Source: Methanomassiliicoccaceae archaeon (GTDB taxonomy: Archaea > Thermoplasmatota > Thermoplasmata > Methanomassiliicoccales > Methanomethylophilaceae). From it: DNA of 50,449 nt. Shown one piece after another: positions 20,281 through 32,734 of the stretch (the stretch's first letter is position 1; each line of letters starts with the position of its first letter). The translations under genes were made by a program, and so were the position numbers. The stretch is from assembly GCA_003550345.1 (NCBI GenBank), contig PUJZ01000022.1, positions 1 to 50,449 of the forward strand, read 5' to 3'. Below the pieces are notes generated by a model. The model was not told where the DNA came from and did not search any database. It worked only from the letters and a program-made list of their open reading frames with translations.

Positions 20281-20385
20281 GCCGGGGTGGCTCAGCCTGG
20301 TGGAGCGTCGGACTCATAGGGTTCAGGTTCTTGGACCTCTTCCAGGGAAATCCGAAGGTCACGGGTTCGAACCCCGTCCCCGGCA
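20281..20385 (+). tRNA. Elongator tRNA-Met (CAT) with a 31-nt intron
   Basis: The arms are acceptor GCCGGGG/CCCCGGC, D-stem GCTC/GAGC, anticodon stem TCGGA/TCCGA and T-arm ACGGG-TTCGAAC-CCCGT. The anticodon CAT is at 20315-20317. Bases 20319-20349 are an intron at the canonical 37/38 site; the bulges TAG and AAA fit a bulge-helix-bulge, and removal gives a 74-nt tRNA. Discriminator is A, and CCA is not encoded. The D- and T-arms match archaeal elongator Met rather than initiator or Ile2. Confidence 0.93.
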
Positions 20386-31819: not shown

Positions 31820-32443
31820 ATGGATATCAGTCTAGACTCGATTCAATCATACATCCAAGACTTCCATCTGAGCGAGCTGACGGCCTCCCCCGTACCTGAG
31901 GTCATACTCGGTCTAGGGGGTCTCCTGGCGTTCCTCATGGCCTTCCGCTACATGAGGACCGGCGGGGGCCTGGCATACCGCCTGAAAACCTTCCTCGGTG
32001 TTATCGGCGGGCTGGTGATGATGGTGACCGTCTATGCGATGCAGGCGCATGCCACTGGCGAATGGACGGTATTGTCCTTGGCGCTTATGGGGGTCACAGG
32101 CTTCGCCCTGTTCTTCCGGCCCTTCAGGACGATCAATCTGGCAGTGATACTGGCGATATTCGCCGCGGTGGGACTGTACCTCTTCCTCGGCACGCTTACC
32201 GACCCTGCCTGGGAGTTCCTGACCGACGATGTGATCAGGGCGGTCATAGCGCTGGCGGCGGCGGTGATAATATTCACCGCCATGCGCTTCGTCCAGGAGC
32301 TGATAACGTTCGTCAACAAGATCGTCAACGCCTGGCCGGTGCTGCTGATACTCGGTCTGCTCTGCATGGGAGAGGCGGTCGCGATCTACATGGACACCAA
32401 CATATTGGAGCTCTTGGACGAGTACGTGTTGAACAATCTTTAA
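31820..32443 (+). CDS. Membrane protein of unknown function with about six spans
   Basis: 207 residues. After a 25-residue amphipathic start, six hydrophobic segments are visible (for example VILGLGGLLAFLMAF, FLGVIGGLVMMVTVY and VLLILGLLCMGEAVAIY). Few charged residues lie inside the membrane, and I see no transporter or enzyme motif. It is followed at 28 nt by the tRNA-Arg gene. I do not recognise the family. Confidence 0.6.
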   Translation: MDISLDSIQSYIQDFHLSELTASPVPEVILGLGGLLAFLMAFRYMRTGGGLAYRLKTFLGVIGGLVMMVTVYAMQAHATGEWTVLSLALMGVTGFALFFRPFRTINLAVILAIFAAVGLYLFLGTLTDPAWEFLTDDVIRAVIALAAAVIIFTAMRFVQELITFVNKIVNAWPVLLILGLLCMGEAVAIYMDTNILELLDEYVLNNL

Positions 32444-32471
32444 ATCAAATGGACGTAATCGGGACATCTGC

Positions 32472-32568
32472 GGGCCCGTGGCTTAGCCAGGATATAGCGC
32501 TGGCCTTCTAAGCCAGACGCCTCGGGTTCGAAAGTCATAGAGGGCCGAAAATCCCGACGGGCCCGCCA
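32472..32568 (+). tRNA. tRNA-Arg (TCT) with a 19-nt intron in the T-loop
   Basis: Acceptor GGGCCCG/CGGGCCC, anticodon stem CTGGC/GCCAG with loop CTTCTAA (anticodon TCT, bases 32507-32509) and T-stem TCGGG/CCCGA are all intact. The T-loop is interrupted after TTCGAA. A strict bulge-helix-bulge forms: helix TTCG/CGAA, 3-nt bulges AAA (32531-32533) and AAT (32550-32552), and an intron helix GTC/GGC. Cutting after the second base of each bulge removes 32533-32551 and leaves the normal loop TTCGAAT. Discriminator G and CCA are encoded. Mature length is 75 nt without CCA. Confidence 0.93.
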
Positions 32569-32626: not shown

Positions 32627-32734
32627 ATGAAGAGAAGCTCACGAGCCTGGAAGAAGCCTGGGAACCAGAGATGGAAATGGCGCAAGAAGAAGATGCGCCG
32701 CAGGAAGAGGGCGCAGAAGATGCGTAAGAAGTGA
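32627..32734 (+). CDS. rpl41e: 50S ribosomal protein L41e
   Basis: 35 residues, nearly all Lys, Arg, Trp and Met; the core RWKWRKKKMRRRKRAQKMRKK is the eL41 peptide, which sits between ribosomal subunits. Archaeal eL41 is often only about 25 residues and starts at the Arg-Trp-Lys; here the ATG adds about 13 residues (MKRSSRAWKKPGNQ). GAGGAG lies 6 nt before it, which fixes the start. The gene lies between two intron-bearing tRNA genes. Confidence 0.85.
   Translation: MKRSSRAWKKPGNQRWKWRKKKMRRRKRAQKMRKK

Follow-up and report, generated by a model that had tools for sequence, protein, structure and literature searches.

A bulge-helix-bulge intron in the T-loop of tRNA-Arg(UCU) in Methanomassiliicoccales

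The tRNA-Arg(UCU) gene found at 32472-32568 of the window (the whole stretch of 50,449 nt that was analysed, whose DNA matches Methanomassiliicoccales, Thermoplasmatota) is almost certainly a functional, single-copy gene with an ancestral bulge-helix-bulge (BHB) intron in its T-loop, which, judging from the sequence, would be excised and its exons joined by cleavage and ligation. Comparison of orthologous genes indicates that this intron is real and common to the whole order. Its mechanism is ordinary, and its distribution appears to be new.

The tRNA-Arg(UCU) gene and its locus

The features of the locus are the following:

32439..32444, + strand: TATA-like box TTTAAA, about 30 nt upstream of the tRNA
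32472..32568, + strand: tRNA-Arg(UCU) gene, 97 nt with the intron included, CCA encoded
32522..32532, + strand: portion of the hBHBh motif contributed by the 5' exon (T-stem TCGGG at 32522-32526, TTCG at 32527-32530, the bases AA of the 5' bulge at 32531-32532)
32533..32551, + strand: 19-nt BHB intron AGTCATAGAGGGCCGAAAA, at T-loop position 59/60
32552..32557, + strand: 3' exon part of the hBHBh motif (T60 and T-stem CCCGA)
32627..32734, + strand: 35-aa very basic ORF MKRSSRAWKKPGNQRWKWRKKKMRRRKRAQKMRKK, a conserved downstream neighbour, eL41-like by eye only

The gene is laid out as GGGCCCG-TG-GCTT..TAGC-CTGGC CTTCTAA GCCAG-ACGCC-TCGGG TTCGAA[AGTCATAGAGGGCCGAAAA]T CCCGA-CGGGCCC-G-CCA. The initial annotation had placed a 19-nt insert at 32533-32551, at T-loop position 59/60 of a tRNA-Arg(UCU), and all these coordinates hold; the isotype is likewise borne out. 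The strict hBHBh motif that it had described is reproduced exactly by minimum free energy (MFE) folds, with the same result for the whole precursor and for the T-arm alone: TCGGG/CCCGA, TTCG/CGAA, GTC/GGC and a 6-nt loop, with two bulges of 3 nt each (AAT next to the T-stem and AAA next to GTC/GGC) separated by the 4-bp helix TTCG/CGAA. As in the strict hBHBh class, a canonical tRNA is restored if each bulge is cut after base 2. The predicted cuts give the exact T-loop, and the resulting spliced tRNA of 78 nt (75 nt plus the encoded CCA) is identical to the intronless orthologs at 75/78 positions. The folding energy of the T-arm hairpin is no better than that of shuffled sequences (z = -1.08, not significant) and is weak evidence alone; the case for an intron beyond chance is therefore made by a pattern control (the strict T-loop pattern has one match in the 1.4-Mb genome and none in the reversed control), by the conserved site and motif and by the covarying helix pairs described below. 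Because the insert disrupts the T-arm, the unspliced gene is missed by ARAGORN, which detects the spliced version, and scores only 31.1 bits with the Rfam tRNA model (gathering 29), with the T-arm broken.

The TATA-like box is present in 95/97 distinct orthologous upstream regions, mostly at about -29 to -38. Searches of Pfam and NCBIfam with the 35-aa ORF gave no match; this same small basic ORF lies 3' of both intron-bearing and intronless orthologs wherever the sequence suffices, with one exception, and this common neighbour identifies both kinds of gene as the same locus. It is scarcely credible that the gene is a disrupted pseudogene and that a different UCU tRNA is in use. The host assembly (G000; 1.40 Mb in 102 contigs) is just 89% complete, which would leave some room for a second gene, but the tRNA inventory of its fetched stretches contains, besides this gene, Arg tRNAs with anticodons CCU, CCG, UCG and GCG and no further UCU gene, so that the other intact tRNA-Arg(UCU) which the initial annotation had named as a possible refutation was not found there. 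Moreover, in a BLAST search of 40 relatives the intron-bearing gene was the sole close match in the single-contig genomes G009 and G015, and the stems, the TATA box and the neighbour are all conserved. Elsewhere in the window, at 20281-20385, a tRNA with anticodon CAT (by eye) contains an intron at the canonical position 37/38; when introns are allowed, ARAGORN misreads this tRNA as Ser(CGA).

Conservation and age of the intron

The gene was found in most of the 40 relatives searched by BLAST. A wider ortholog set was gathered with a pattern of the 5' half only, blind to the T-arm, and yielded about 90 stretches, from named records, that have the gene. Among 83 distinct complete orthologous genes from Methanomassiliicoccales and near relatives, 58 have the 59/60 intron, with an identical insertion site in all of them, and 25 lack it. 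An additional 37/38 intron is present in 21/58 of the former and 2/25 of the latter. The 55 distinct introns are 19-31 nt long, begin with A or T and end in CGAA (53/55) or CGGA (2/55) plus two bases, both of which can pair with TTCG. The bases of helix pairs 1 to 5 do pair in 55, 53, 52, 51 and 51 of the 55 introns, against shuffle maxima of 39, 46, 46, 43 and 46, a covariation test that is inflated by the relatedness of the sequences. Pair 1 is G-C in 35 introns and C-G in 20, with no exception, and most helix positions have several pair types. In the orthologs without an intron, which occupy the same locus, the TTCGAATCC T-loop is unbroken and scar-free. The T-stem TCGGG occurs in 57/58 intron-bearing genes vs. 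11/25 intronless ones (Fisher p = 2e-8, phylogeny ignored), and the T-stem variation of the latter could reflect either a relaxed constraint after intron loss or simply shared descent.

These comparisons also bear on whether the mature tRNA could keep the 19 nt as a hairpin that enlarges its T-loop, a reading that we regard as extremely improbable. The intronless orthologs have at the same locus precisely the T-loop expected from splicing; divergence in the rest of the intron has spared the strict bulges and the 4-bp centre; and the UUCGAAU loop, which the tRNA elbow requires, would be destroyed if the insert stayed.

Within the order, the intron occurs in families f1-f6, always at this site, in agreement with an earlier suggestion that it could serve as a lineage marker, and it is absent in genera g4, g6, g15 and g19. 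On a quick single-protein tree of 30 endonucleases, with several weak forks and 25 genomes scored for presence or absence, this distribution demands a minimum of 4 changes, all of which can be read as losses (in g4, g6, g19 and g15). It is thus best read as an intron that the ancestor of Methanomassiliicoccales already had and that was lost, each time precisely, on four or more occasions. It may even be older than the order, because 59/60 introns are also found in the tRNA-Arg(UCU) of L288 (family f20) and of L337 and L349 (another class). The alternative offered by the initial annotation, a recent gain by lineage-specific insertion at this site, could account for the genera in which the intron is missing, but the presence of the same site across f1-f6, the changes on the tree, all possibly losses, and the introns of L288, L337 and L349 contradict it and make it very unlikely; recent gain was rejected on this phylogenetic distribution.

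Splicing machinery and proposed processing

The host has a single endonuclease gene, coding for 357 aa with two PF02778-PF01974 repeats. The catalytic triad Y281/H296/K327 (Tyr-His-Lys) is invariant in the second, C-terminal repeat. An AlphaFold model of this protein (pLDDT 87) has the M. kandleri fusion 5x89 as its best Foldseek match (0.83), followed by 1rlv (TMt 0.82), 2gjw (0.80) and 2ohc (0.77), that is, a fold like that of the A. fulgidus and T. acidophilum EndA. From its sequence and model, the enzyme is assigned to the alpha-prime-2 type, one chain with a pseudo-catalytic repeat first and a catalytic repeat second. Its structural fit to 4fz2, of the epsilon-2 (ARMAN) type, is poor (TMq 0.56, rmsd 9.6); that type is a three-unit chain with an ARMAN-specific loop and the catalytic unit in the middle, and in the host enzyme the catalytic unit is last. 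The crenarchaeal specific loop, which in A. pernix corresponds to K44-P45-R46 (PMC12397907), is absent: in an alignment with the A. pernix EndA, the query lacks the 10-residue insertion in which these residues lie. The genome also contains an RtcB gene. In the same class, the homodimeric enzyme of Ferroplasma cleaves minimal BHB substrates (PMC8707768); since the host has genes for both its endonuclease and RtcB, the strict T-loop BHB is a plausible substrate.

In the proposed mechanism, U54-U55-C56-G57 of the precursor would pair with the intron CGAA, and these 4 bp would be the centre of the hBHBh motif, which would stand in for the normal T-loop. The homodimeric alpha-prime-2 endonuclease would cleave each of the two 3-nt bulges between its second and third bases and RtcB would join the exons, restoring UUCGAAU, and the T-loop/D-loop elbow would form after splicing. 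Because U54-G57 would be held in the BHB helix and the elbow thereby blocked, splicing probably precedes T-loop modification and the elbow-dependent steps.

Non-canonical introns in other tRNAs and in other archaea

Another example of non-canonical introns in the order is tRNA-Lys(UUU). In families f2-f6, the T-loop of this gene has an insert and its D-loop an intron (AGCTAGGT^...AA^A) in 10/10 checked genomes (loci L354-L360 and L373-L375), whereas in f1, the family of the window, neither is present in 12/12 genomes with a match, which suggests a joint, precise loss of both introns in f1. The fold of the D-loop intron has 4 bp in the centre, a bulge of 3 nt on the 5' side and, at the 3' site, an internal loop; the helix of this intron covaries at some positions. 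ARAGORN found 0/10 of the intron-bearing tRNA-Lys(UUU) genes and 12/12 of the intronless ones. In genome G381 (2.6 Mb), ARAGORN detects neither of the two tRNA-Lys genes (L273 and L274), both of which have non-canonical introns. No tRNA-Lys was found in Methanomassiliicoccus luminyensis, where the gene was guessed to lie in unsequenced DNA (Borrel et al., 2014; PMC4153887); by analogy, cryptic introns may be behind this "missing" tRNA.

Across Thermoplasmata, the strict 59/60 pattern matches 242/400 genomes, with very few matches in the reversed control, and strict patterns miss relaxed introns. The fetched examples yield recognisable tRNAs once spliced, among them Lys(CUU), Lys(UUU), Gln(CUG), Gly(UCC), Asp(GUC) and Arg(UCG). 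ARAGORN isotypes are wrong for genes with extra introns (for example, Lys(UUU) with a D-loop intron is given as Ala, Gln, Ser or Stop), and genes with D-loop introns or long variable arms were named confidently only if read by eye. The statement of the initial annotation that such introns are uncommon in euryarchaeal-type genomes matches the published record, but it is outdated, since 59/60 introns occur in most sampled Thermoplasmata families, in several isotypes and in another class. Families f18, f22, f30, f33, f34 and f35 comprise 97 of the 400 genomes but 2 of the 242 that match, below their own control rate. Their endonucleases are mostly shorter (~240-320 aa), with one recognisable PF01974 repeat, whereas those of the other Thermoplasmata families are mostly ~340-370 aa or more, with two such repeats. 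This correlation between introns and endonuclease length may have its source in one or a few phylogenetic splits.

In other classes of the phylum 59/60 introns are fewer, and some are just 13 nt long. Genome G451 has identical 13-nt T-loop introns in Ala and Leu-type tRNAs (L339, L340), and G465 near-identical ones in two Gly-like tRNAs (L335, L336); a copying of introns between tRNAs is possible in both. Such cases, together with the many isotypes that have introns at 59/60 and with the likeness of U54-R57 in nearly all tRNAs, by which one intron could fit many genes, would also agree with a mobile BHB intron inserted repeatedly at this position instead of being inherited by common descent. 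For tRNA-Arg(UCU) we consider this improbable, as the distribution agrees with inheritance and a small number of losses and neighbouring genera have recognisably similar introns. As a general picture, and with slightly more confidence than doubt, we propose that T-loop 59/60 and D-loop introns are old and widespread in Thermoplasmata, that they are processed by long, two-repeat alpha-prime-2 enzymes that have none of the specific loops presumed necessary, that they are absent where the enzyme is short and without a recognisable N-terminal PF01974 repeat, and that they have sometimes spread between tRNAs.

Position 59/60 is a known intron site in Crenarchaeota, including Thermoproteales (Sugahara, 2008; reviewed in PMC4090602). 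The introns described here resemble those of Thermoproteales in this position, in BHB recognition and in the possibility of several introns per tRNA, but the Thermoproteales hosts have an (alpha-beta)2 endonuclease with the crenarchaeal specific loop, and here there is a single alpha-prime-2 type whose catalytic repeat is without it. With the canonical 37/38 introns of euryarchaea, which coexist with the 59/60 intron in some orthologs of tRNA-Arg(UCU), they share the strict hBHBh and presumably the same enzyme and ligase; the pairing partner differs, being the universal T-loop sequence here and the anticodon loop there. Korarchaeum cryptofilum also combines an alpha2-type enzyme with non-canonical introns and has been considered the only alpha2 archaeon to do so (PMC4033280); the specific loop, however, is reported for its enzyme too, whereas the host enzyme lacks this insertion. 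Finally, the permuted tRNAs of Thermofilum (PMC3218864) have the same 59/60 T-loop junction, but in them the gene halves are inverted, whereas here the gene order is normal, with a 19-nt intron in between.

Reviews tie non-canonical tRNA introns to special-loop endonucleases and state that euryarchaea with alpha4 or alpha2 enzymes have 37/38 introns only (PMC4090602, PMC4033280, PMC12397907), and in one of them these Euryarchaeota are described as carrying a single intron in the canonical place (PMC4090602). Multi-intron tRNAs are listed in two euryarchaea and ARMAN only (PMC4033280), and non-canonical introns have been described in three thermophilic euryarchaeal methanogens (PMC3218864). No prior report of tRNA introns in Methanomassiliicoccales or Thermoplasmatota was found in the open-access literature, and GtRNAdb may list some. 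The tRNA-Arg(UCU) intron belongs to a wider set of archaeal non-canonical introns that has apparently gone unreported. On the practical side, such tRNA genes escape ARAGORN. The reviews are directly contradicted by an order-wide T-loop intron, together with the D- and T-loop introns of tRNA-Lys, in organisms whose alpha-prime-2 enzyme has no such loop, and the system offers a ready assay for what restricts intron position. If the general picture proposed for Thermoplasmata is true, the subunit type of the enzyme would limit the strictness of the motif, and not the position of the intron.
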